Source of the DNA: Hydrogenophaga sp.
GTDB lineage: Bacteria > Pseudomonadota > Gammaproteobacteria > Burkholderiales > Burkholderiaceae_C
NCBI RefSeq assembly: GCF_011390835.1
Contig: NZ_JAABRQ010000006.1
Location: 21,508 to 85,507, forward strand
Direction: 5' to 3'
Length of the DNA stretch: 64,000 bases
The position numbers and the translations under genes were made by a program. Positions 41,979-55,606 of the stretch are shown here, in pieces. The number at the start of each line of letters is the position of its first letter. The stretch's first letter is position 1. The notes beneath the pieces were generated by a model that was given only the letters and a program-made list of their open reading frames with translations, was not told the DNA's origin and ran no database searches.

Positions 41979-43336
41979 CTCGCAGCGAAACCCCGATGTC
42001 TGCTTTGAACTCCGATTTGCAAGTCGACGTTGCCGTGATCGGCGGCGGGCCGGCCGGCCTGATGGCGGCCGAGGTGGTCTCGCGCGCAGGGCACGCGGTG
42101 CATGTGTTCGACGCCATGCCTTCGGTTGGCCGCAAGTTTTTGCTCGCCGGCAAGGGCGGCATGAACCTCACCCACGCCGAGCCCATGGCGCCCTTTGTCC
42201 AGCGTTACGCCGAGCGCGCCGAGTTGGTGGGCCCGCTGCTGCAGCGCTTCGGCCCGCAAGCCGTGCGCGACTGGGCTGCTGGCCTCGGCATCGATACGTT
42301 TGTTGGCACCTCGTCGCGCGTATTTCCGACTGACATGAAGGCCGCTCCTCTGCTGCGGGCCTGGCTGCACCGGCTGCGCCATCCCGATGCGGGTGGCGCG
42401 CCGGTGAACTTTCACATGCGGCATCGATGGCAAGGATGGGTAAACCCCGCCGAGAGCAGCGAAGGCGACGCCTTGCGCTTCAACACACCACACGGAGTGC
42501 TCACCATGCGCGCCCGCGCCACCGTGCTGGCGCTCGGGGGGGCCAGCTGGGCGCGGCTCGGGTCTGACGGCGCCTGGGCGCCTTGGCTGCAAGGGGCAGG
42601 TGTGGCCGTGGCGCCGCTGCAGCCGAGCAACTGCGGTTTTGATGTGGCCGCATCCGGGGTGCATGCAGAGGAAGAAGGCTGGAGTGCGTTTTTCCAAGAG
42701 CGCTTTGCGGGGCAGCCGCTCAAATCCGTCGTCCTGGACTTCACCGACAGCCTGGGTCGCCACTTCAAGCGGCGCGGGGAATTCGTGGTCACCGCCGGCG
42801 GTGTTGAAGGCAGCCTGATGTATGCCGCTTCCGCCCTGATTCGCGATCAGATTGCGCGCAGTGGGCGGGCAATCATCCACCTGGACCTGTTGCCCGATCA
42901 AAGCGCCGAGCAGGTCGCCGCGCACACCGCACATCCGCGAGGCTCACGCAGCCTATCGGCCCACCTCAAGAGCCGCCTGGGCCTGGGTGGCATCAAGATG
43001 GCGCTGCTCAATGAGCTGCTGGACAAAGCCACGCTGCACGATCCCCAAGCACTGGCCAAACTACTCAAGGCCTTGCCGCTTACGCTGTTGCGCCCACGCC
43101 CGATTGACGAAGCTATCAGCACCGCGGGTGGCGTGGCCTTTGACTCATTGGACGAACAGCTGATGGTGCGCGAGCGGCCCGGCCTGTTCTGCGCCGGTGA
43201 AATGCTGGATTGGGAAGCGCCCACCGGCGGTTACCTGCTGACTGCTTGCCTCAGCAGCGGCGTGGCGGCGGGTGAGGGTGTGGTGCGGTGGCTGGCGACC
43301 ACAAGGTCCGACGCAGCTGGCTTGCCGATGACTTGA
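41975..43336 (+). CDS. HI0933-like (TIGR03862-type) flavoprotein
   Basis: FAD-dependent protein of 453 residues. The Rossmann dinucleotide motif is VAVIGGGPAGLMAAEVVSRAG, and the family block RKFLLAGKGGMNLTH follows. It has LALGGASWARLGSDG and the C-terminal GLFCAGEMLDWEAPTGGYLL (second FAD contact). Members are of unknown function, possibly modifying tRNA or reducing small molecules. The ATG at 41975 overlaps the helicase stop (ATGA); an ATG at 41996 is the alternative. It is the last conserved housekeeping gene before the accessory segment. Confidence 0.85.
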   Translation: MTRSETPMSALNSDLQVDVAVIGGGPAGLMAAEVVSRAGHAVHVFDAMPSVGRKFLLAGKGGMNLTHAEPMAPFVQRYAERAELVGPLLQRFGPQAVRDWAAGLGIDTFVGTSSRVFPTDMKAAPLLRAWLHRLRHPDAGGAPVNFHMRHRWQGWVNPAESSEGDALRFNTPHGVLTMRARATVLALGGASWARLGSDGAWAPWLQGAGVAVAPLQPSNCGFDVAASGVHAEEEGWSAFFQERFAGQPLKSVVLDFTDSLGRHFKRRGEFVVTAGGVEGSLMYAASALIRDQIARSGRAIIHLDLLPDQSAEQVAAHTAHPRGSRSLSAHLKSRLGLGGIKMALLNELLDKATLHDPQALAKLLKALPLTLLRPRPIDEAISTAGGVAFDSLDEQLMVRERPGLFCAGEMLDWEAPTGGYLLTACLSSGVAAGEGVVRWLATTRSDAAGLPMT

Positions 43337-43669
43337 AATGCAAATGAGCCTGTCCCAGGGCAGTCCCGTGAGGGTGCATATTCCAGTCGCCTAAAGTGCA
43401 TTGCACTGCTGACCAGTGTTCTGTGCGGCGAGAACTCGGAAAGGACTCGGTATCCCGCCCTCGACGAATAGCAGCTCTGCTCGCAAAAAATGACAGAAGT
43501 CACAAATCGGCTGGGATCCAACCGGTCATTCGCAGAACAAGGCCCCAAGCGACCGGTTGATCACCCAGACTGGTCATTCGACCGGAGTCGAACAGACCAA
43601 GGCCCGGGAACGACTGCTAACTCCAAGGATGAAATGGTGTTCCCGCTCATGAGTACCATTCAGTCTGCA
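43337..43669. other. Non-coding boundary between the flavoprotein gene and the accessory segment
   Basis: 333 bases without a supportable gene. They hold an imperfect direct repeat: ACCGGTCATTCG (43521) with AGAACAAGGCCC (43534), and again ACTGGTCATTCG (43569) with AGACCAAGGCCC (43594). Nothing resembling the 3' end of ffs (a possible attachment sequence) was seen here. No terminator or promoter is clear. Confidence 0.6.
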
Positions 43670-45208
43670 TCAGTGCGCTATCTTTCCATCGGATCGACCG
43701 GCAAGCACACCCTGCAGAAACGTGATCAGGCTGGCATCCACGTTGAGTGATTGCAGCAGCGTGATGGCTTGTTGTAAGTCTCTGTCCGCACCCACGCGGG
43801 TTTGAATAGCGGTCGCTTTTCGTGCCAACTTGGAGCCGGTTTCTGGAGGGAGTACATCACCCAGCATTTCTGCTGCATAACGAGCACGCTTGGCCTGAAG
43901 GCGGGATCTATGGATCAGCTCGACAGGGGCCCCGGGTTCGTTGCTGCTTTTTAGCGTGCGCTCGAGGCGCCGTCGCAGAGTTGTCATGCGTTCGTTTGCC
44001 CATTGGCTCGTTTGCGCCTTCTTCCCCTTCTTCTTTCGAACGACCGCATGCGTGCTTTGCACACCAGCGAGTTCGAACATCGCTTGCGATAAACCGACAA
44101 GCGCAGCACCTGTCGCAGGCGAAGCCAGTTGAGACCTGAGCTGGACGCGACGCTGTGATCGGGCTTTGTCTATCTGAGCAATTGCCTTGTTGACGATGCA
44201 CAGGCGCTCGTTTCCGCTGTCAAGGAATGTGGGCAACCACGATGCCAAGGTGTCGTATCGCAGCACATCCAGATCTCGGAGCAGCCCCAGTGCGTTCAAC
44301 AACGGTTTCAACCCCTCAAATTCAGGCATTCGGGGCAGCCAGGCTGAAAACAGCCACTTTGCGCTGCGCCAGCGCCTCCATCCCACCCTGGCTTGATGAA
44401 CCAGTTCTGGATCGTCTGAATCTGTCAGTCCCGACAGGTTGCGCGTGAGGTGCTCATACGTTTCCGCGAAGGCTGCTTGGGCGGCTTCAAGTGGGCTGGC
44501 CCGTTTGTCCAGATGGATCATTTTCGCCCGTCTGGGAGCTTGGGCGTGGCCTCGCGTGAGTTGATAGCCGCGCTCTGCCTTGCTGGCATCGCAGGGCAAA
44601 ACTGCGATGGAGTGTGCAATCGTTTGTGCCAACTCAAACAATGATTCGGCTGGTCCGCTCTTGAGTTCAAGCTCAAGTTCCAGTATCGGAAGGTTCCGTT
44701 CTCCTGCGACTATTTCGCCCACATCGAGTGCGACCTCGATCGAGGCGCCCTGGTAGCGCTGCAGCTGCCAAGTAGTGCGGCGGCAGCGGGTATCGAAACA
44801 AGGGCAAAGGGCGGCGAAAAGATGGCCTTCGGCATCCAGATGGCTCCACGGCGTCTTACGCAGAGCGGTTTCGTTGAGCGACCCGATGGTCACGCGGCTT
44901 TCCCATTCACCTCTTTCACTCAAGCCACCCAGGGAAGTCCCCGCAGACTTGAACGTTTGAATCCATTCACCGTCTGGCGCGAAGCCTGGTATGGCGCTCC
45001 TCCAAGGCGTGTCGCTCACACAACGCAAGCGAAGCGCGCTGCGTTGCGCGCGCAATGTTTCCTCTGGCGTGTCGAAATAGCAGTTCCACAGCCATTGGCT
45101 TTGTGACTTGCGGCGTGCCAAGACTGGAAGACTGCGCAATCGGCCCTCAATGTCCGAGGCATCTGCCCCAGGCAACAGGAGTTTGAGCTCGATCTCAGTG
45201 TTCGACAT
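43670..45208 (-). CDS. CYTH-CHAD domain protein (triphosphatase / polyphosphate-binding)
   Basis: Protein of 512 residues. The N-terminal CYTH domain carries the EIELKLLLPG signature (ExExK) and cleaves triphosphate-type substrates in characterised members. The C-terminal CHAD domain (about 240-500) is helical with many conserved Arg/His/Lys (HQARVGWRRWRSAKW; LIHRSRLQAKRARYAAEML). CHAD domains bind polyphosphate and target proteins to its granules. The ATG at 45208 matches the family start. It is last in a minus-strand operon with an orphan ParA and an AT-hook protein, an unusual partnership. Confidence 0.9.
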   Translation of the reverse strand: MSNTEIELKLLLPGADASDIEGRLRSLPVLARRKSQSQWLWNCYFDTPEETLRAQRSALRLRCVSDTPWRSAIPGFAPDGEWIQTFKSAGTSLGGLSERGEWESRVTIGSLNETALRKTPWSHLDAEGHLFAALCPCFDTRCRRTTWQLQRYQGASIEVALDVGEIVAGERNLPILELELELKSGPAESLFELAQTIAHSIAVLPCDASKAERGYQLTRGHAQAPRRAKMIHLDKRASPLEAAQAAFAETYEHLTRNLSGLTDSDDPELVHQARVGWRRWRSAKWLFSAWLPRMPEFEGLKPLLNALGLLRDLDVLRYDTLASWLPTFLDSGNERLCIVNKAIAQIDKARSQRRVQLRSQLASPATGAALVGLSQAMFELAGVQSTHAVVRKKKGKKAQTSQWANERMTTLRRRLERTLKSSNEPGAPVELIHRSRLQAKRARYAAEMLGDVLPPETGSKLARKATAIQTRVGADRDLQQAITLLQSLNVDASLITFLQGVLAGRSDGKIAH

Positions 45209-45281
45209 CGCTAACCCTTGAAATACAGCAGCAGTCTGGACAGTTGACAGCGGCTGGCGTGTCTTTGACGATTTGGCCTGG

Positions 45282-45908
45282 CTACAAAATATCGACCCAC
45301 TGCAGCAAAGGTTGCCAGTCTTCCCTTTCGCGCGCTGCCAAAGATGGGCTGACATCGAAAATGCTCGCTCCTGCTTCAGCCACCCGACCATACAACTGGG
45401 TAGGTCGGATCATCGTCAAAGTCTCGAAGCCTTGCGCTGCCAGAAACTCACGCAGCTGAGTGGCCGCCAGGGTACGGGGATCCACCCGAACGCCCACCAG
45501 TGCCACTTCGGCTTTGCCACGGCTGACGGCTTTGATCGCCTCTAGTTGGTCCAAAAACAGCTTGGTGGCCCAAAGGTCAAAGGGCGAAGCCTGAACCGGC
45601 ACGATGATGCGGGCTGACACCTTGACAATCTGCGCCAGCGATTTGCCCGACAACCCGGCTGGCGTGTCAAGGATCGCATGGGTGACCCCTTTGGGTGGGC
45701 GTGCTACATCGTCCGCTCCGATTTGCCAAGTTTCAATGGAAGCCATGCCCCGGTGCCGGCTCTGGAGCCATCGCCGGGAAGACTGCTGAGTGTCCACATC
45801 ACCGAGTAGGACAGCAGGGCTGCGCTGGGCGAAATAGCCCGCCAGATTGGTGGCCAGTGTTGATTTACCCGAGCCACCTTTCGGATTGATGATGCTGATG
45901 GCCTTCAT
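45282..45908 (-). CDS. Orphan ParA/MinD-type ATPase
   Basis: Deviant Walker ATPase of 208 residues: IINPKGGSGKSTLATNL at the N-terminus, GDVDTQQSSRRW (Walker A'), and HAILDTPAGLSGK (Walker B). It lacks the N-terminal DNA-binding domain of chromosomal/plasmid ParA of the long type. No ParB and no parS repeats are nearby, so plasmid partition is unlikely. Such solitary ATPases (McdA, PpfA, ParC) position protein cargos over the nucleoid. It sits between the polyphosphate-type CHAD gene (73 bases) and a basic DNA-binding protein (40 bases). Confidence 0.88.
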   Translation of the reverse strand: MKAISIINPKGGSGKSTLATNLAGYFAQRSPAVLLGDVDTQQSSRRWLQSRHRGMASIETWQIGADDVARPPKGVTHAILDTPAGLSGKSLAQIVKVSARIIVPVQASPFDLWATKLFLDQLEAIKAVSRGKAEVALVGVRVDPRTLAATQLREFLAAQGFETLTMIRPTQLYGRVAEAGASIFDVSPSLAAREREDWQPLLQWVDIL

Positions 45909-45948
45909 TCCACAGCCATCTGCAAAATCTGGCCGCTGCGTCCAACGC

Positions 45949-46548
45949 TCACTTCTTCGGACGACCTGTTTTCAGCTTTTCAACGTCGGCAACGGCAGCA
46001 ATCAGTTTTTCATTGTCCAAAGCAAACAGCATCCCGATAGCGGCCCGAACCAGCTCTCCCTTTTTCACTTCTGTGCCCAAGGCGATCAGGCGCTTCTTGA
46101 GTTCAACCAGGCGCTTGTGTTCGGACTCAGGAAAAGTGAAGCTGTCACGAACCATCTTGATTATCGGCGCACGATGTGCTGCCTTGCCTTTTGCTCCCTT
46201 TGCCTTTTTTTGTTTTAGAACAGGTGTCTTGTCGGCAACGGGGGTGCTCTTTTCAACACTGGCGCTCTTCTCCGCGACTTTGGCAACCTGCTTGTTGATA
46301 GTGGGCTTTGGCGGGGTGTTTACACCGGTCTTGCTTGGGATGGGCGCGCTCGGGGTAGCGCTAGCCGCCTTCTTGGCTGCGGGCTTGCTGCCACGGTTGG
46401 TGGCGGCTTGTGCCGGCACCTTTAGAGTCGCCTCAGGCTTGGGTTTTGCCTGCAATGCTCGCGTCTTGACAGGTGCAGCAGGGAGAACAGGCGCACTGGG
46501 AGCGATAGTGGCAGAAACAGCGGATTGGGTTGAGGCATCAGTGGGCAT
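45949..46548 (-). CDS. Lys/Ala/Pro-rich protein with C-terminal DNA-binding-like domain and AT-hook
   Basis: Basic protein of 199 residues. Residues 1-125 are low-complexity Ala, Pro, Lys and Thr, histone H1-like and probably disordered. Residues 128-190 are conserved-looking and helical (IIKMVRDSFTFPESEHKRL, KGELVRAAIGMLFAL), with a strand-helix-helix start suggestive of ribbon-helix-helix proteins. The extreme C-terminus KTGRPKK is an AT-hook core. It could bind DNA and act as the adaptor of the neighbouring ParA. Three ATAAAC/GTTTAT half-sites just upstream suggest autoregulation. No homologue is recognised with certainty. Confidence 0.7.
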   Translation of the reverse strand: MPTDASTQSAVSATIAPSAPVLPAAPVKTRALQAKPKPEATLKVPAQAATNRGSKPAAKKAASATPSAPIPSKTGVNTPPKPTINKQVAKVAEKSASVEKSTPVADKTPVLKQKKAKGAKGKAAHRAPIIKMVRDSFTFPESEHKRLVELKKRLIALGTEVKKGELVRAAIGMLFALDNEKLIAAVADVEKLKTGRPKK

Positions 46549-46573
46549 AAATTCTCTTGAAAATTTTAATAAT

Positions 46574-46597
46574 ATAAACAGTTTATACCAAATAAAC
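46574..46597. promoter_or_regulatory. Palindromic ATAAAC repeats, candidate operator
   Basis: A perfect palindrome ATAAAC-A-GTTTAT (46574-46586) and a third half-site ATAAAC (46592-46597) lie 26-49 bases upstream of the AT-hook protein start. They overlap TATTAT/TATAAA promoter-like sequence on the minus strand. Confidence 0.45.
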
Positions 46598-46832
46598 GAT
46601 GTTGAGAATTGATTTGGCCAGAAGCGAGTGCCGGCGACAGGTGTTTCCCGAGGGGCTGAAGCTCACCTCAACGGTCTGGGAGCAACCTTCACCGGAAAGT
46701 GTCCCAAGCCACTTCGCGTTGGGACACGCCATATGCTGTACGTCTTCCTCGGCCCGGACGTTGGCGTTCTGCCTCTCCAGCCGGCTTGTGTCTCGATGAG
46801 AGATTCGTGACAACCCTGAGATGCGCCGTTGA

Positions 46833-46846
46833 TTGATCTGGATCAA
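46833..46846 (+). promoter_or_regulatory. FNR/Anr-type binding site
   Basis: TTGAT-CTGG-ATCAA is a perfect match to the FNR/Anr/CRP-FNR consensus TTGAT-N4-ATCAA. It is centred 106 bases upstream of the DUF47-fusion start, leaving room for a class II promoter (start near 46880) with a leader. It suggests induction of the operon under low oxygen. Confidence 0.7.
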
Positions 46847-46945
46847 AAGTAGAGCGCCATCAGACAATTTTCTGGCCCTATTTGTCACCAGATCGAAACT
46901 CAGAACAAACAAGATCTATAGCAAGCTCATCACTGGAAGCCTTGC

Positions 46946-48886
46946 ATGGAAAAAGAAAAAGCCGTTGCTTCGCTGGGGAAGCCGACCTTGTTGTTGCCGG
47001 CTTGGATCAAAGCTGCGCTTCGAGCCAACGATCGCCTCAAGTTGTACCTGTCGGTGTTGCAGTCTGCCTTGCAACATGCAGGCAACCCTGCCGGCGGCTT
47101 GCACGACTGGACTCATGAAATCGCCCATCTCGGGCTGACCAACGCGCTCTGGATCAAAGACCTCGTCACCACCAGCTATCTGCAGGACGAGATCCTGATC
47201 GTTCCCAACCTGGGACAGTGGCTTGGCGCGCTGGCCGCCGATCTCAGCTTGATGGCGCGTCCGCTCTGCGATCTGGACGGACATAGGGATCGCACACTGA
47301 GCGAGCGTCGGGATCATTGGCTTCGACGTATTGAGGAGATGGAAAGCGAAGAGGGCTTAGACCCCCAGGCGCTGGGCGACCTGACTCGCGGCGACCGACG
47401 CGGCACCGACAGCTTTCATTTGCTGGTCATGGATTTGCACAGAGGTTTGAACGCGATGGCAGTCGAGCTGTCGACCGAAGACATTGACGGTGCCCATGTC
47501 TGGCAGATCGACGATCAAGACCGGCCGTTGATCGAGGCTTTCATGCGGGGACTGTCACGTACCGCTCCACTGAAGTTCAACCATCCTGGACTCGACACGG
47601 CGGCCACCAGAAATGGGAAAACGCTGTTGATCCAGAATGACATTGGCACCAACGACGCGCACGTCTTGGTGATTGAAGTCGAGGCGCTGAAGATTTCGTT
47701 AACCTATTCTGATCTGCATCCTGCCCGCTTTGATTTCTTCAAGCAACTGCTGGAGCGCCATGGATTCTCATGGGATGTCTTCAGTCCCCGCACGACCGAG
47801 GGACTCAACCAAGGTAAGCCCTACACGGTTGGTCATGCGGAGCTTGATGCTCGCGACCTTGCTGCGCTGCTGCAAGGCCTAGAAGCGGTGGCTTCTCGGA
47901 TCGTGTTTGTGATTGACTGGAACCGCGCGCGAAAACGGCTCCAGCCTTTTGTGCGCAAATCGGTGGCCATCGCGGTGCTCAAACAAGCTGCTGACGAAGA
48001 TGTTGGTCACATGGCATGGCTGTTGGCTGGCGGCGAGAAGCTGGTATTCGAGGCAATGCAATCGGTGGACGGCGAAGCCTTTCGCATCGGCGATCGCTTG
48101 GATCAGGTGTTGGGCGACGCAGCCGCCCAAGATTTTTTAAGCAACCTGCTGCGGCTGGCCAGCATCAAACTGCGGGAGCAGCAGCCAGCGGCACTGGTCG
48201 CAGACGAGGCACGGTTGCTGCTTGCGCGGGTACTGCAGCGGCGCACGTTCGAGTTCGATCTTTTGGCCGAGCATGCGGCGTATTGCCACGCCTTGGCTCA
48301 GTTGTTGAGTGAACTCATCGATGCTCGGCTTCCTGCAGAAGAAGCCACACAACGTGCCAAGGAATGGGAGCGTAAGGCGGACCAGGTGTTGACGGAGGCG
48401 CGGCGCCGAGCCGAGCGCCAACCTCGCTGGTTGCCAATGGTGGAATTGCTCGACCGGATGGACGATATCGCTGACGACCTGGAGGAAGCTACTTTCGTCT
48501 ACAGCATGATTCAGATGGTGCCTTCGAACTCCCTGCCAGCCACAGTGGCTAGCGTCTTGGGGCGCTTGGCGGATACGACGCTGGCGGCGATCCAAGACCA
48601 GATCAAGGCGATTGAGATTGCCCGCGATATGAGCGACCACAGTGAATCCACGGATAGCGATGTGTTTTTGCAAACCCTTTGGCGCATCTTGAGAGCTGAG
48701 CGAGTATGCGATGAACAGTTGAGAGACGCCCGCAAAGAGATCGTACGCACTCTGGGGAAGCATCCACCGCTGTTCGCGTTAGCCAATGAGTTGGCCGTCA
48801 CGATAGAGCGGGCTAGTGACAGCCTGCTCTCGGTAGGCTATGGGCTTCGCAAGCTTGTTTTCAAGAAATCTGGCATGTCGGCATAG
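46946..48886 (+). CDS. Large protein with C-terminal DUF47/PhoU-like domain
   Basis: Protein of 646 residues. The C-terminal part (about 430-640) looks like DUF47/PhoU-like helical repeats: ERKADQVLTEARRRAE, LLDRMDDIADDLEEATFVY, LADTTLAAIQDQIKAIE and ANELAVTIERASDSLL. DUF47 proteins bind metal or phosphate-linked ligands and often work with Pit transporters, but none is encoded here. The first 420 residues are not recognised: a helical start (ANDRLKLYLSVLQSAL), then a mixed alpha-beta region with VIDWNRARKRL. No signal peptide or membrane helix is seen. GGAAG precedes the ATG. It heads the FNR-site operon, 53 bases before the PPDK-like gene. Confidence 0.65.
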   Translation: MEKEKAVASLGKPTLLLPAWIKAALRANDRLKLYLSVLQSALQHAGNPAGGLHDWTHEIAHLGLTNALWIKDLVTTSYLQDEILIVPNLGQWLGALAADLSLMARPLCDLDGHRDRTLSERRDHWLRRIEEMESEEGLDPQALGDLTRGDRRGTDSFHLLVMDLHRGLNAMAVELSTEDIDGAHVWQIDDQDRPLIEAFMRGLSRTAPLKFNHPGLDTAATRNGKTLLIQNDIGTNDAHVLVIEVEALKISLTYSDLHPARFDFFKQLLERHGFSWDVFSPRTTEGLNQGKPYTVGHAELDARDLAALLQGLEAVASRIVFVIDWNRARKRLQPFVRKSVAIAVLKQAADEDVGHMAWLLAGGEKLVFEAMQSVDGEAFRIGDRLDQVLGDAAAQDFLSNLLRLASIKLREQQPAALVADEARLLLARVLQRRTFEFDLLAEHAAYCHALAQLLSELIDARLPAEEATQRAKEWERKADQVLTEARRRAERQPRWLPMVELLDRMDDIADDLEEATFVYSMIQMVPSNSLPATVASVLGRLADTTLAAIQDQIKAIEIARDMSDHSESTDSDVFLQTLWRILRAERVCDEQLRDARKEIVRTLGKHPPLFALANELAVTIERASDSLLSVGYGLRKLVFKKSGMSA

Positions 48887-48939
48887 TCGCCCGGCCCTCG
48901 CCAGAAACCTGTTCGCAACGACTTGAACGGAGCAATCAA

Positions 48940-50592
48940 ATGAGCACCTTGCCACATTGGCCCAAACATTTTTACTTGGTTGCACGCGATGCTACGCCGG
49001 TACACCATCAGCCCACGAAGGAAAACATGGGCTCCAAAGCACACAACCTGCTTCGCATGACGGGCATCGGCTTGCCGGTACCGCCAGCATTGGTCATCGG
49101 AACTCATTTCACGCGCGCGCCTGAAGATGCCATGCTCCCCCTGTTCAGCGTGGGGCTGCCTGAACTCGAAACCGTTACTGGCTTGAAGTTCGGCGATGTG
49201 CGCCAGCCACTGATCTTATCGGTGCGCTCGGGCGCGCCGGTGTCCATGCCAGGCATGATGGAAACCTTGCTCAATGTGGGCCTTTGTGATGCCACGTTAC
49301 CGGGACTGCTTCGCCAGACCGGGAACCCTCGTTTGGTTTGGGATGCATACCGTCGATTGATTGCGACCTATGGCGAAGTGGTGGCGGGGGTATCGGGGGC
49401 ATTGTTCGAAGACGCCATCACCGCCAAGACACAAGGGCGGGATGAGCGCACACTTGATTTCAGTGAACTGCGCGATTTGGTTCAGCAGTTTTTGGTGATT
49501 TACCGTGAACTGGCAGGAGAGCCGTTTCCCCAAGACGTGAACACCCAATTGAGCGGCGCTGTGGCAGCCGTGTTTGCTTCGTGGGATCAGCCCAAAGCCA
49601 TCACGTATCGAGGGATTCACAACATTGATGAGCGTATGGGCACTGCGGTGACGGTGCAGCAAATGGTGTTCGGCAATTCGGGTGGACATGCAGGAGCCGG
49701 TGTGGGTTTCACCCGTAACCCGACCACCGGCGAGCCTGGCCTCTGGGTCGACTTTCTGGTGAATGCTCAAGGTGAAGACGTGGTGTCGGGTCAACGCAAT
49801 GCCCATGGCCATGCCGCGCTTGAGCAAGTGGCGCCATTGGCCTGGCAGGAGTTGCAGAACGTAGCGACCCGCCTAGAGCAGCATTTTGAGGACATGCAAG
49901 ATTTTGAGTTCACTGTGCAAGATGGCGAGCTCTACATGTTGCAAACGCGATCGGGCAAGCGCACACCTTTGGCGACTGCGCGTATCGCCCTCGATCTGTG
50001 TGACGACGGCATTATCGACACAAACACAGCGTTGGAGCGCACCGCTGCATTGCGACACCAAGATCTCGCCACGCTACATCTGGTAGCTCAAGGAACAAAC
50101 ACGAGCATCATCGAACCCTTGGCGTCTGCCCTGCCGGCCTGCAATGGTGTGGTTTCCGGTGAAATCGCGCTGGACGCTGCGCGTGCGCAAGAGCGTCAGG
50201 CCCTCGGTGTTTCGGCGGTATTGGTGCGACAGGACGCCCAGACCAGCGATATTGCTGCACTGCAATCAGTGGGCGGTCTGTTGACACAACGCGGTGCCCG
50301 AACATCTCATGCCGCGGTGGTTGCGCGCCAGATGGGCAAGGTGTGTCTGGTCGCCTGCAGTACCCTGCGCATCGATGAGCCCAGCCGATGCATACAGCTG
50401 GGGGCCCAAACCCTGTTCGAGGGCGATGTCATCACGCTGGACGGAAACGAAGGGCAGGTCTATGCCGGGAAGGTCGAGACCATGAGCGTCGCTGATGAGG
50501 CGCTCATCGAGCGCCTCCGAATACTCAGGGCAAAACCCGCAGACAAACGGCACCCTGAAAGCAATGCACCAAGAATTGAGGTCCCTTCATGA
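48940..50592 (+). CDS. PPDK-like protein lacking the PEP/pyruvate barrel
   Basis: Protein of 550 residues. It has the ATP-grasp nucleotide domain of pyruvate phosphate dikinase (NMGSKAHNLLRMTGIGLPVPPA, LSVRSGAPVSMPGMMETLLNVG, GTAVTVQQMVFGN, DFEFTVQDGELYMLQTR) and the swivelling phosphohistidine domain (TQRGARTSHAAVVARQMGK, phosphorylated His in TSHAA). Full PPDK has about 870 residues. The C-terminal TIM barrel that binds PEP/pyruvate is missing, and no separate barrel gene is in the window. It might phosphorylate another acceptor, as rifampin phosphotransferase does, or need a distant partner. The stop overlaps fabI by four bases. Confidence 0.82.
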   Translation: MSTLPHWPKHFYLVARDATPVHHQPTKENMGSKAHNLLRMTGIGLPVPPALVIGTHFTRAPEDAMLPLFSVGLPELETVTGLKFGDVRQPLILSVRSGAPVSMPGMMETLLNVGLCDATLPGLLRQTGNPRLVWDAYRRLIATYGEVVAGVSGALFEDAITAKTQGRDERTLDFSELRDLVQQFLVIYRELAGEPFPQDVNTQLSGAVAAVFASWDQPKAITYRGIHNIDERMGTAVTVQQMVFGNSGGHAGAGVGFTRNPTTGEPGLWVDFLVNAQGEDVVSGQRNAHGHAALEQVAPLAWQELQNVATRLEQHFEDMQDFEFTVQDGELYMLQTRSGKRTPLATARIALDLCDDGIIDTNTALERTAALRHQDLATLHLVAQGTNTSIIEPLASALPACNGVVSGEIALDAARAQERQALGVSAVLVRQDAQTSDIAALQSVGGLLTQRGARTSHAAVVARQMGKVCLVACSTLRIDEPSRCIQLGAQTLFEGDVITLDGNEGQVYAGKVETMSVADEALIERLRILRAKPADKRHPESNAPRIEVPS

Positions 50593-51365
50593 ACGATCGA
50601 AAACCATCTGGCCTGTCGGGAAAAAAGGGACTCATCTTGGGCCTGGCCAATGAGCACAGCATCGCCTGGGGATGTGTCAAAAATGCGCGCGAGCAAGGTG
50701 CCGATCTCGTGGCTGTTTGCCTCAATGACAAGGCTCGCACCTATGTCGAGCCACTGACGAATCCGCTGGACATCACATTGTTGAACTGCGATGTGGAAGA
50801 CGACGGTGCGCTTGAGCAAGCCGTTGAGCAGGCGGCCGCGCAAATGGGGCGAATCGACTTTGTCGTGCATTCGATCGCGTGGGCGCCGTTGGTTGACTTG
50901 CACGGCCCTGTGGTTGCTAGCAGTCGCGCCGGATTTGCACGCGCGATGGACGTGTCTTGCCATTCGTTTGCGCGCTTGGCGCGGCTATGTGCGCCGCACA
51001 TGTCGGCCGGCGGAAGCCTGGTCACCATGAGCTATCTCGGCGCAGACGAGGCGGTGCCTCACTATGGACTGATGGGCCCGGTCAAGGCGGCGCTGGAGTC
51101 GCTGGTGCGCTACATGGCGGTTGAGTTAGGGCCACAGGGTATCCGCGTGCACGCAGTGTCACCGGGGCCAATCCAGACGCGGTCAGCTTCGGGCATCAAT
51201 CACTTTGATGAGTTGATGTCGCACGCACAGCAAAAGGCTCCGCGGGGACGCTTGGTGACGCTCGATGAGATCGCAGGTCTGTGCAGCTTTCTCTGCAGCG
51301 ACGCGGCAACGGGCATGACCGGCCAGACGATTTACGTGGACGCTGGTTGTCACGCCGTGGCTTGA
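50589..51365 (+). CDS. fabI: FabI-type enoyl-ACP reductase
   Basis: Short-chain dehydrogenase of the FabI group, 258 residues: GLILGLANEHSIAWGCVKNA at the N-terminus, VHSIAWAP, and the catalytic Tyr-x6-Lys in HYGLMGPVKAALE. The C-terminus has SPGPIQTRSASGI and GQTIYVDAGCHAVA. It is probably a second, accessory copy rather than the essential fatty-acid enzyme, judging by its place in the accessory operon. With the following MaoC-Pta fusion and PhaC it fits a group of genes tied to polyhydroxyalkanoate metabolism. It starts ATGA in the PPDK-like stop. Confidence 0.88.
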   Translation: MNDRKPSGLSGKKGLILGLANEHSIAWGCVKNAREQGADLVAVCLNDKARTYVEPLTNPLDITLLNCDVEDDGALEQAVEQAAAQMGRIDFVVHSIAWAPLVDLHGPVVASSRAGFARAMDVSCHSFARLARLCAPHMSAGGSLVTMSYLGADEAVPHYGLMGPVKAALESLVRYMAVELGPQGIRVHAVSPGPIQTRSASGINHFDELMSHAQQKAPRGRLVTLDEIAGLCSFLCSDAATGMTGQTIYVDAGCHAVA

Positions 51366-51402
51366 ACCCGTTCGGTTGAGTTTGAACCCGAAAGCACCCC
51401 AA

Positions 51403-52821
51403 ATGCGCTTGACACCAATAGCCCAAGAAGCGGCCTCAACCAGTGAGTGGATCGAGAACCTCACTTTTGACGAACTCTCAATAGGTCAGAGTGGCCAACT
51501 TGTGCGCAAGCTAAAGCCCAGCGATATCGAGGCTTTTGCCGCCGTATCGGGCGATGTCAATCCGGCCCACCTGAACGCAGACTACGCCAACGCGTCGATG
51601 TTTCATGGCCTCATCGCGCATGGCATGTGGGGCGGCGCCCTGATCTCTGCTCTGCTCGGAACCCAGTTTCCCGGCCCGGGCACCATTTACCTTGAGCAGG
51701 TCCTGCATTTCAGCAAGCCCGTTCGCATCGGCGACACGCTTACGGTGCTGGCCACGGTCAGCGCCAAAGATGCCGAAAAGAATCGCATTGAGTTGGATTG
51801 TCAGGTATTGAATCAGCGCGGCGAAAGGGTATTGCACGGCTTGGCCCGCGTTATCGCCCCGACACAAAAAGTTCGACTGCCTCGCATGCACGCACCGCAG
51901 ATCGGATTGTTCGATCCGCTGGCCAGGTTCCGGGAGTTGCTGGCATTGGGCGATGGTCTGCCACCGGTGCGATGCGCTGTGGTGCATCCCTGCGATGCCG
52001 ACTCACTCAAGGGGGTGCTGGATGCCACTCGACATGGCGTGATTGAGCCACTGTTGGTCGGTCCCGAATTCCGGCTCCGAGCGATCGCCGAAGAAATAGG
52101 GATGGATTTGCAGGGCATCACAATGATTCCTGCTGCACACAGTCACGACGCTGCAGAACAAGCCGTGGCACTCGCGGTGCAAGGGCAGGTGCAGTCCCTG
52201 ATAAAAGGTAGCCTGTCCACCGGCGAATTGATCCACGCGGTTCAGGCAAGTGCCGCTATGCGCACTGGTCGTCTGCTCTCACATGTGTACCGTTTTGATG
52301 TGCCGCTCTACGCCAAGCCCTTGCTGATCACAGATACGGTGCTCAACATGCGGCCTGACCTGGAACAGAAGGCTGACATTCTGCGCAACGCCATTCAGTG
52401 CGCCCACGCGGTCGGCCTGGAGGTGCCCCGGGTGGCAGTATTGTCCGCAGTCGAAATTGTCAATCCGGCGGTAGCTTCATCGATCGATGCGGCGGCGCTG
52501 TGCAAGATGGCCGAGCGGGGGCAGATCACCGGTTGCTTGATCGACGGACCGCTGACCTTTGACGACGCCATCTCCATCCAGGCTACTCATCTGCGCCAAA
52601 TCGATTCGGCCGTTGCAGGACAGGCCGATGTACTGCTGTCGCCGGACTTCGAAAGCGGCAATATGCTCGCTCGACAATTGCAAACGTTTGGAGGAGCGAC
52701 CGCTTCGGGAGTGGTGTTGGGCGCCCGGGTGCCCATTGCACTGAGCAGCCGTTCCGAAGGACCAAAGGCCCGGGTGGCTTCGGCCGTATTGGCCCAACTG
52801 GTGGCGCATCGAATGTCGTAA
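51403..52821 (+). CDS. Bifunctional MaoC-like hydratase / phosphotransacetylase
   Basis: Fusion protein of 472 residues. Residues 20-150 form an R-specific enoyl-CoA hydratase (MaoC) domain with FAAVSGDVNPAHLNADYA and MFHGLIAHGMWGG (catalytic Asp and His). Residues 165-470 are a phosphate acetyl/butyryltransferase domain (VVHPCDADSLKGVLDA, LIKGSLSTGELIHAV, VVLGARVPIALSSRSE). Together they can provide R-3-hydroxyacyl-CoA and handle acyl-phosphates. No acetate kinase gene follows, although one often does. The ATG at 51403 was chosen; a TTG at 51376 would add nine residues. It converges with phaC. Confidence 0.88.
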   Translation: MRLTPIAQEAASTSEWIENLTFDELSIGQSGQLVRKLKPSDIEAFAAVSGDVNPAHLNADYANASMFHGLIAHGMWGGALISALLGTQFPGPGTIYLEQVLHFSKPVRIGDTLTVLATVSAKDAEKNRIELDCQVLNQRGERVLHGLARVIAPTQKVRLPRMHAPQIGLFDPLARFRELLALGDGLPPVRCAVVHPCDADSLKGVLDATRHGVIEPLLVGPEFRLRAIAEEIGMDLQGITMIPAAHSHDAAEQAVALAVQGQVQSLIKGSLSTGELIHAVQASAAMRTGRLLSHVYRFDVPLYAKPLLITDTVLNMRPDLEQKADILRNAIQCAHAVGLEVPRVAVLSAVEIVNPAVASSIDAAALCKMAERGQITGCLIDGPLTFDDAISIQATHLRQIDSAVAGQADVLLSPDFESGNMLARQLQTFGGATASGVVLGARVPIALSSRSEGPKARVASAVLAQLVAHRMS

Positions 52822-52915
52822 ACCATCGCCGACGTTAACGTTCTCAGTCCGGCGTAGCGACGGGCAGATCGAAGCGGCCGGCGTGTAAGCTGGCGTAGCC
52901 CGTGATCTGCAGTGC

Positions 52916-54724
52916 TCAATCCTGGTAGCGGACCATCACAAAACGGCCAGGTGCGGGGCCCAGCTCAGGATCTTTGAAGGGGACGCGTGCCTCGATCAAA
53001 GTCTGAGACCCTGAAGCCACCAGCCAATCGCTCCATGCCGGCCACCAACTACCCGCATGCTTGGCGGCCGAGTTCATCCACTGGTCAGGTGATGGCTGAT
53101 CTATTGAGGTATCTGTGCAATGCATCTGGTAGTGCCGGCCGGTATGCCCAGGCTCGGAAACGATGCCAGCATTGTGCCCACCGCTGGTCAAAACAAAGGT
53201 GATGGGAGTTGGCACAAGTTGATGGATCTTGAATACAGACCTCCATGGCGAGACGTGATCTTTCTCTGTGCCGATCACAAACACGGGCACACGGATGGCG
53301 TGCAGAGAAATCAGCTGGCCCTCAAATGTGTAGCGACCTTCTGCAAGATCGTTGTTCAGGTACATGTGGCGCAGGTATTCGCTGTGCATCACGGCCGGCA
53401 GGCGGGTGACGTCAGCGTTCCAGGTCATCAGGTCGTTGCTGAACGCTGGCTCACCCATCAACACCAAGTGTGTGCGCTGAGACCAGATGAGCTCCCGGGA
53501 ATGCAGGAATTGGAACGACGCGGCCATCTGCTGTCCGCTCAGGAAGCCCTGTGCTGCAGTCAGAGCTTCGAGTTGCTCGACCTGCGCCTGATCGATAAGC
53601 ACGCTCATTTCACCGGGCTCGGAAAAGTCCGTCTCGGCTGCCATCAAGGTCAGGCTGGCCATCTGTGGACCGCCGGCATCGAATGACTGGGTTTGCGCCG
53701 CCAGTGCCGCTGCAGCAATGGATGCGAAGGTGCCGCCCAGACAATAGCCAGCAAGGTGTACCGGTTCTTGTGTCGCCGCGTGAACATGGGTCATCGGGCT
53801 GAGCACACCCAGGCGCACGTAGTCGTCCATGTCCAGAAGCGCGTCATCATGGCTAGGATTGCGCCAAGAAACCATGTAGACAGTGTGCCCCTGTGCGACC
53901 AACCAGCGAACCATGGAGTTTGCCGGTGACAGGTCCAGAATGTAAAACTTCATGATGCACGAGGGTATGATCAAGACTGGGTTAAGTCGCACCTGAGCCG
54001 TGCTCGGCTGGTACTGAACCAGCTCGATCAATTCGTTGCGCATCACCACTTGGCCCAGTGTGGTGGCCAAGGCTTTTCCGGGTCCCAGATCGTTCTCTGC
54101 TTCATTCGGCGGCAGCAGACCATGTTTGCGGGACCACTCGTTTCGTGCGTTGATCAGACCCGCAAGCAAACTGGTGCCGCTGGTCTCAGCAGCGCGTTGG
54201 AGCGCTTCGGGGTTGGACAACAGCCAATTGCAAGGCGACATCATGTCAACGGTTTGTTTGGCATAAAACCGCATCTGCTCTTTGGAATGGGGTTCCATGC
54301 CGTCAAGTGCTGTGGCTTCTTGCCACCAGATTTCTAGGGCCTTGTTGCCCGCCGCCAGCATGCTCCACGGAAACTGGTGCCATGTAGGACTGCTGAACCT
54401 GGTGTCATTGGCGATCGCTGCAGAAAGCGCAAGGGAGGGATACTCACCTTCGTGAGCGGAGACCCGTGTGCTGGCATTTGACACAACGGGCTTGAGTGAC
54501 AGGAGCGATTCGGCGATCCACTGATCAAACAGAAACTTGCCGTCCAGGGCGAGTCTGGCTTGAGCACCCGGAGATTCGGCCAAGTTGAGGATCCAATCGC
54601 TCATCGCACGCAACAATGAAATCGGTGATATCCCACCATTGCTTTGGGCTATCGCAGCTTTGAAAAGACGGTCCAGATCCTTCAATGCTTGCACTGGAAT
54701 TGCGGGTGAAGTTGCTGTTTTCAT
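52916..54724 (-). CDS. phaC: Polyhydroxyalkanoate synthase PhaC
   Basis: PHA synthase of 602 residues in the class I/II size range. The lipase-like box has the catalytic Cys (HLAGYCLGGTFAS, about residue 322). Catalytic Asp is in GTEKDHVSPWRSV and His in TSGGHNAGIVSEPG. The N-terminal region begins with an Ala/Pro-rich stretch. It polymerises 3-hydroxyacyl-CoA into storage granules. It is probably not the main phaCAB locus, because no phaA, phaB or phasin gene is adjacent; FabI and MaoC-Pta are the convergent neighbours. The integrase fragment lies 25 bases upstream. Confidence 0.93.
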   Translation of the reverse strand: MKTATSPAIPVQALKDLDRLFKAAIAQSNGGISPISLLRAMSDWILNLAESPGAQARLALDGKFLFDQWIAESLLSLKPVVSNASTRVSAHEGEYPSLALSAAIANDTRFSSPTWHQFPWSMLAAGNKALEIWWQEATALDGMEPHSKEQMRFYAKQTVDMMSPCNWLLSNPEALQRAAETSGTSLLAGLINARNEWSRKHGLLPPNEAENDLGPGKALATTLGQVVMRNELIELVQYQPSTAQVRLNPVLIIPSCIMKFYILDLSPANSMVRWLVAQGHTVYMVSWRNPSHDDALLDMDDYVRLGVLSPMTHVHAATQEPVHLAGYCLGGTFASIAAAALAAQTQSFDAGGPQMASLTLMAAETDFSEPGEMSVLIDQAQVEQLEALTAAQGFLSGQQMAASFQFLHSRELIWSQRTHLVLMGEPAFSNDLMTWNADVTRLPAVMHSEYLRHMYLNNDLAEGRYTFEGQLISLHAIRVPVFVIGTEKDHVSPWRSVFKIHQLVPTPITFVLTSGGHNAGIVSEPGHTGRHYQMHCTDTSIDQPSPDQWMNSAAKHAGSWWPAWSDWLVASGSQTLIEARVPFKDPELGPAPGRFVMVRYQD

Positions 54725-54749
54725 AGCAAGAGGCTACGGGCTAGATGTG

Positions 54750-55409
54750 TCAAGCGTTTGAACAGGAGTTCGCGAGTGAATATGATTGCGTGGGAGTTGC
54801 CGCTGAAACCAGTAGTGGCAGGCTGCGCCGAGTGAAAGTTCTCGCTGGTGCCCAAGGTCGGCATTTGGTCCGCACCCCCATGGCGTACCGCATGTGCAGT
54901 CCCGTGGAAAACAACTTCTTCAGTTCGTCATCGGTGAATGAGCGACGGCGGGCCGATGTCTTGGCCTTGATGTCCAGATCCTCCCACTTATGGTGCTCGG
55001 CCCACTCCAGATCACGGGAGGCGTACTTCAACAACGAGTTGATGCCCGCGAGCCGATCCCGCGCAGTCTTGGGCGTCTTGCAGGTCTCCAGCAGCCACGT
55101 ACGGTAGAGGTATTCCATGCCTCGCGAGATGTCCCTAAGGGGCACCCCAGGGTGCTGCGTTTCAAAGTGCCGCAGGGTGCGTTCCAGGTTGAGCTGGCGG
55201 GCCTTGTCATCGAACTCAGCGAGGAGGGCAGCGCGGGCTTCTGTGCCCAGCCTGTCGGCTTCCTTGCGGTCCGTGGTGTTGAGGCTTCGGATGAGCTTGC
55301 TGCGGCCCTCGTAGGCGGGCTGCAGAGCGAGGGGGATCATCACGCGGACCTGGTACACACCAGCGCGGAGAAATAGGCCAAGAGGTTTTGCAACGCATGG
55401 TTTGGTCAT
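54750..55409 (-). pseudogene. Truncated tyrosine-recombinase (phage integrase) gene
   Basis: Open frame of 219 residues that matches an integrase only at its N-terminal part: an arm-type start (GVYQVRVMIPLALQPAY, RSKLIRSLNTTDRKEADRLG) and a core-binding domain (AGINSLLKYASRDLEWAEH, RRRSFTDDELKKLF). After about residue 175 the sequence no longer fits. The catalytic domain with its Arg, His and Tyr is missing, so the protein must be inactive. It starts about 100 bases downstream of ffs on the same strand. That is the usual position of an integrase next to its attachment site and marks a former element end. Confidence 0.85.
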
Positions 55410-55511
55410 GTGGGTTTCTCAAAGTGACACACCACACTGACACACAAACCGCCTCGGACCCCGCATAAACGCTGGAGACCGCGCCCCGCTTGGCTTTGCG
55501 AGTGATAAGGT

Positions 55512-55606
55512 GACGAGCCTTGACCCCGGCACTGGCTACACAGTTAGGGCTGCTTGGTTCCCCACCTGACCCGGTTGGCCGCTTCACCATGCGGGAAGGC
55601 CCGTCC
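55512..55606 (-). ncRNA. ffs: Signal recognition particle 4.5S RNA
   Basis: The conserved SRP core on the minus strand is GGTCAGGT, then GG-GGAA-CC as tetraloop stem, then AAGCAGCC. The two base pairs closing the loop are swapped relative to E. coli but still complementary. The 5' GACGGGCCTT and 3' AAGGCTCGTC ends pair with one G-T wobble, giving about 95 bases, the bacterial 4.5S size. Placement next to dnaX is common. The exact ends are estimated to within a few bases. It is divergent from dnaX, and the integrase fragment lies downstream. Confidence 0.88.

Follow-up and report, generated by a model that had tools for sequence, protein, structure and literature searches.

The window analysed here is a 64,000-nucleotide stretch of a Hydrogenophaga sp. 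genome (assembly GCF_011390835.1, contig NZ_JAABRQ010000006.1), and our subject is a pair of genes on its plus strand. The first, at 46946..48886, encodes a 646-residue protein, referred to below as the partner, in which an N-terminal alpha/beta domain (residues ~1-410) is fused to a PhoU/DUF47 domain (~415-642). The second, at 48940..50592, encodes a 550-residue pyruvate, phosphate dikinase (PPDK) that has an ATP-grasp domain (PPDK_N) and a swivel domain and lacks the phosphoenolpyruvate (PEP)/pyruvate barrel. We confirm the pair, which is conserved and, so far as our searches reach, has not been described before. Judged from sequence, the two proteins may form a two-component dikinase with a small molecule as its substrate, a reading to which we give about an even chance.

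The PPDK_N and PEP-utilizers domains of the kinase both score above cut-off, and the protein ends where the barrel of PPDK would start: its alignment to PPDK spans residues 29-529, PF02896 was not found in it at E<=0.1, and all 74 closed kinase open reading frames (ORFs) among the loci described below end 39-201 residues past the catalytic His. The kinase falls below the cut-off of the PPDK equivalog TIGR01828 (508.2 vs 843.45 bits) and reaches 399.5 vs 456 bits with NF004531, a model of 534 positions. The catalytic residues of C. symbiosum PPDK, which we take to be K22, R92, E323, Q335, R337 and H455, with R135 as an active-site Arg, correspond in the alignment to 1kbl to K33, R96, E323, Q335, R337 and H457 of the kinase. 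These six are invariant in the non-gap rows (79, 78, 77, 77, 77 and 75, respectively, from 79 loci), and the codon of His457, the residue aligned to the catalytic His, lies at 50308..50310 (plus strand). In an unrooted tree of 27 rows, a 100/100 branch sets 20 pair kinases apart from seven other PPDKs, of which three are full enzymes and four are barrel-less ones of actinobacteria. These four were taken from plasmid records and lack PF02896; three of them have long branches, and the mycobacterial protein VadK was left out of the tree. By this comparison the pair kinases would form a new group, distinct from all seven.

The N-terminal ~410 residues of the partner match no family in Pfam or NCBIfam, and no whole-domain fold match is among those listed for the model of this domain, which was built alone from 416 residues (46946..48193, plus strand). 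Across 64 rows, 31 of its polar or aromatic residues (letters HDENQRKTSYWC) are at least 97% conserved, and the domain is our candidate for the acceptor-substrate site. Its conserved residues include H158, D163, H165, N231, D237, H239, D256, H258, D324, N326, R329 and K330. The C-terminus is clearly a PhoU fold in the predicted structure. At the level of family models, PF01865 (PhoU_div) matches residues 437-601 (48254..48748, plus strand) with 24.6 bits, a marginal pass of its gathering score of 24.4, and TIGR00153 reaches 17.3 bits, below its cut-off of 104.3. The E(D)xxxD motif, taken as defined in PMC5686610, occurs in the PhoU part at E475-D479, D506-D510 and E585-D589, and again at E621-D625, past the PF01865 match; in a 21-row alignment (A2), E475, D479, D510, E585, D589, E621 and D625 are invariant and D506 is at least 90% conserved. 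An earlier note on this DNA had described an unrecognised N-terminal part joined to a DUF47-like C-terminus, followed by an ATP-grasp and phosphohistidine protein without a barrel, and on both proteins that description holds. The note also looked for the acceptor in the DUF47 part. Here we depart from it: because of its conserved polar residues, the N-terminal domain seems the better acceptor candidate, although conservation of this kind was measured on that domain only and the PhoU part too has its invariant acidic motifs.

The two genes travel together in many proteobacteria. A search with the partner protein gave 2290 relatives among 7999 candidates scored, and a scan with the 21-row partner alignment gave 527 matching stretches in the contigs of a collection that covers 84,980 species by a single genome apiece. 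We took the best 80 of these (49-73% identity over the best segment) as loci for comparison; many are short contigs, and the loci are not independent of each other. The kinase gene lies downstream of the partner on the same strand in 79 of the 80, the sole exception (L088) being a contig that ends 163 bases past the partner. The partner was present in 5 of 200 genomes of the order and credibly in 2 of 200 of the phylum, with the host counted in both and four marginal matches dropped from the latter, and in 4 of 142 genomes of the class of G230. The kinase adjoins the partner in eight of eight further genomes (G180, G058, G030, G083, G230, G420, G428 and G395), where partner identity is 33-50%. 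Both plasmid records examined, of three with a partner match, contain the pair, whose annotation there goes no further than a phosphate transport regulator or DUF47 protein and a PEP/pyruvate-binding protein. In the wider genome samples the distribution is patchy, and the pairing itself is fixed; the supposition that the pair would recur in other genomes is thus borne out. A truncated and useless PPDK beside a chance neighbour would explain the missing barrel, yet ordinary decay is contradicted by the conserved pair, the conserved catalytic residues and the one supported kinase group, and we consider it barely credible.

The earlier note had named a separately encoded barrel that restores a normal PPDK as a refutation of its reading, and the host genome (99.3% complete) speaks against one. 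PF02896 occurs in it at two places, a 590-residue ORF that we read as enzyme I of the phosphotransferase system (PtsI) and an 803-residue ORF that we read as PEP synthase (PpsA), the latter also holding the only PPDK_N outside the pair. The PF02896 search found no free barrel in the host genome, so a normal PPDK cannot be rebuilt from one, and it is unlikely that PtsI or PpsA lends its own barrel to the kinase.

We suggest that the 550-residue protein would bind ATP and phosphorylate its own swivel His457, as its intact residues and the behaviour of VadK imply. The swivel, having no PEP/pyruvate barrel to visit, would pass the phosphoryl group to a substrate held in the N-terminal domain of the partner, and the PhoU domain may dock the kinase or tune it to phosphate or metal. 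A more specific version, in which the N-terminal domain represents a novel type of acceptor domain for dikinases, joined to PhoU and supplied with phosphate by the barrel-less kinase, that phosphorylates a metabolite of acyl-CoA or polyhydroxyalkanoate (PHA) metabolism, and the pair a PPDK-derived class of Pseudomonadota that arose apart from HpeHI and VadK, is a tentative one that we hold with distinctly less confidence.

Several points weigh against a small-molecule dikinase. That the kinase autophosphorylates, that the two proteins form a complex, that the phosphoryl group reaches a ligand of the N-terminal domain and that PhoU regulates are all inferred from indirect evidence, and shared descent also yields correlated distances. 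The rifampin-binding fold is absent from the matches listed for the N-terminal model, a listing that cannot exclude that fold, and a substrate-binding role is therefore argued from conservation by itself. Kinase R139, aligned to R135, is replaced by His in 2 of 77 rows. The neighbours of the pair vary widely among loci. Finally, two-component dikinases carry the ATP-grasp domain on one chain and the swivel and acceptor domains on the other, an arrangement that the pair does not share: according to PMC12167813, the swivel of HpeHI is on the acceptor chain, whereas here it is on the ATP-grasp chain of 550 residues.

In the window, the kinase gene is followed with a 4-base overlap by a FabI-type enoyl reductase gene (50589..51365, plus strand, NF005717) and then by a MaoC-phosphotransacylase (MaoC-PTA) fusion (51376..52821, plus strand, NF006045). 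On the minus strand at 52916..54724 lies a class I-like PHA synthase, PhaC, with 462.7 bits against a TIGR01838 cut-off of 622.65; its PhaC_N match is one of two in the host genome, the other being at G000:C27. These genes are suggestive of acyl-CoA, acyl-phosphate and PHA metabolism, and the context is not universal. Across the 80 loci, tblastn matched MaoC-PTA in 26 (some partially), PhaC in 16, FabI in 15 and CHAD in 9. In Methylocella tundrae, genes for a thiolase, a hydroxyacyl-CoA dehydrogenase, an acyl-CoA dehydrogenase and an enoyl-CoA hydratase precede the pair. Fifteen neighbour ORFs from 15 loci cluster together, and by the start of the cluster's representative we read them as acetate kinase; among 20 chosen neighbour ORFs that were scanned, two, in L040 and L061, are PF00871 (AckA) and others are unrelated, e.g. 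iPGM, bactofilin, a cation ATPase and MFS proteins. Since neighbours differ between loci, the link to acyl metabolism is suggestive rather than constant.

The phosphotransacylase raises the possibility that the kinase stands in for acetate kinase, using via the swivel His the acyl phosphate that the adjoining enzyme would supply. The host has no PF00871 match despite its near-complete sequence, yet MaoC-PTA lies beside the pair, and the fusion recurs at the other loci in the numbers just given. AckA, found in 129 of the 200 sampled genomes, is nevertheless present in each of the four genomes that, besides the host, carry the pair in the order sample, and it shares the neighbourhood at L040 and L061; replacement of AckA is therefore not the general role, and we regard this explanation as very improbable.

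Upstream of the pair, on the minus strand at 43670..45391, is a gene for a CYTH-CHAD protein, which brings into view an inorganic phosphate system. Here the partner would hold polyphosphate or pyrophosphate, with which the swivel His would exchange phosphate, turning AMP into ATP when oxygen or energy is short. The chemistry of PPDK is reversible, and both the PhoU fold of the partner and the CHAD matches favour the idea. However, CHAD is unmatched in most loci, short contigs being frequent among them, and no known polyphosphate-enzyme family is present in the partner at the Pfam and NCBIfam level; we think such a system improbable, if less so than an acetate kinase substitute. In a Halomonas locus (L085:7359-8825), one ORF combines CHAD with a histidine-phosphatase domain directly upstream of the pair, on the opposite strand.

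The region 43300-55507 of the window is low in GC (~0.58 vs 0.66) and has the appearance of an integrative island at ffs. Similarity to a genome of the same genus (G049), in which the partner had no match, and to one of the same family (G093) starts at 55507 and extends rightward; this position lies at the end of ffs, the gene for the signal recognition particle RNA (55509-55605, minus strand, RF00169), and a DUF6538/integrase-like ORF lies beside it at 54750-55409. The left edge of the island is not fixed, because neither of the two stretches used for comparison contained the left flank, nor was the ffs end seen repeated there. Also within the region, a ParA-like ATPase (45282-45908) adjoins a lysine/alanine-rich ORF of 199 residues without a Pfam match (45949-46548). 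Both occur again in L020 and L022, close to the pair, and they are possibly plasmid or granule partition genes.

How does the pair compare with known systems? The kinase resembles PPDK over the aligned residues and in the catalytic residues checked, and differs in the missing C-terminal barrel. Relative to PhoU/DUF47 proteins such as BT4638 (3l39) and SO_3770 (2olt), the partner adds an N-terminal domain of 410 residues, and its gene stands in a fixed pair with one for a kinase; no phosphate transporter is among nine window ORFs scanned. Rifampin phosphotransferase (PMC4844700) likewise combines an ATP-grasp domain, a swivel His and an alternative substrate domain, in one chain rather than two.

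A close counterpart of the kinase is VadK (Rv1127c), described in 2026 as a mycobacterial barrel-less PPDK that autophosphorylates on His422 in an ATP-dependent manner, is needed for growth on propionate, has the operonic partner Rv1126c and is also reported in Burkholderia ambifaria (PMC13400623). By that paper's statements, VadK shares with our kinase the ATP-grasp domain and swivel His, the absence of a PEP/pyruvate barrel and of a free barrel gene, an operon partner and a link to acyl-CoA metabolism; PhoU as a term is absent from the paper. By analogy, the pair could be a regulatory phosphohistidine relay in which an autophosphorylating kinase controls other enzymes of acyl or PHA metabolism, with the PhoU partner as sensor and the N-terminal domain as a protein-docking or ligand-sensing module. 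The 100/100 split of the pair kinases from the four actinobacterial barrel-less rows and the three full PPDKs speaks against it, in a comparison that did not include the VadK sequence, and the invariant His, Asp, Arg and Asn resemble a catalytic site more than a docking face. We consider the relay unlikely, while ranking it above the inorganic phosphate system. In single-sequence tests, two small ORFs beside actinobacterial barrel-less PPDKs at L104 and L107 had no similarity to the 646-residue partner. The Rhodococcus oxybenzonivorans 'PPDK' of 835 residues at L104:4938-7445 has ATP-grasp and swivel domains followed by ~330 residues that, having no Pfam match, are not the barrel. A Rhodococcus plasmid row (L105:310-6350) encodes a 412-residue swivel-domain protein, an acyl-CoA dehydrogenase, an AMP-binding protein and a 463-residue barrel-less PPDK, possibly another unusual dikinase.

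The reading of the pair as a small-molecule dikinase finds its model in the class that PMC12167813 (2025) defines by HpeHI, together with CreHI and PpsAB, and that PasAB extends to aniline (PMC7500099). The pair resembles them in consisting of two proteins, in having an ATP-grasp domain and a swivel His, and in an acceptor domain, here a candidate one, that is not the PPDK barrel; unlike HpeHI, it has its candidate acceptor domain fused to PhoU. The genes lie side by side at 79 of the 80 loci, and their products may be obligate components of one enzyme. Dikinases in which another acceptor replaces the PEP barrel drive the breakdown of aromatic compounds, the inactivation of antibiotics and the control of metabolism, and here a widespread pair carries an active-site-like domain without a name; once its substrate is identified, a new phosphorylation step would be defined and the PhoU fold would gain a role within an enzyme. 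The earlier note's "undescribed two-protein phosphotransfer unit" stands insofar as our searches of the open-licence literature met with no publication on the pair; the general idea is not new, since VadK (PMC13400623) and HpeHI/CreHI/PpsAB (PMC12167813) have been published. Set beside systems in which barrel loss and division into two components are already known, what is new here is the partner, its fixed pairing and the separate group of kinases.
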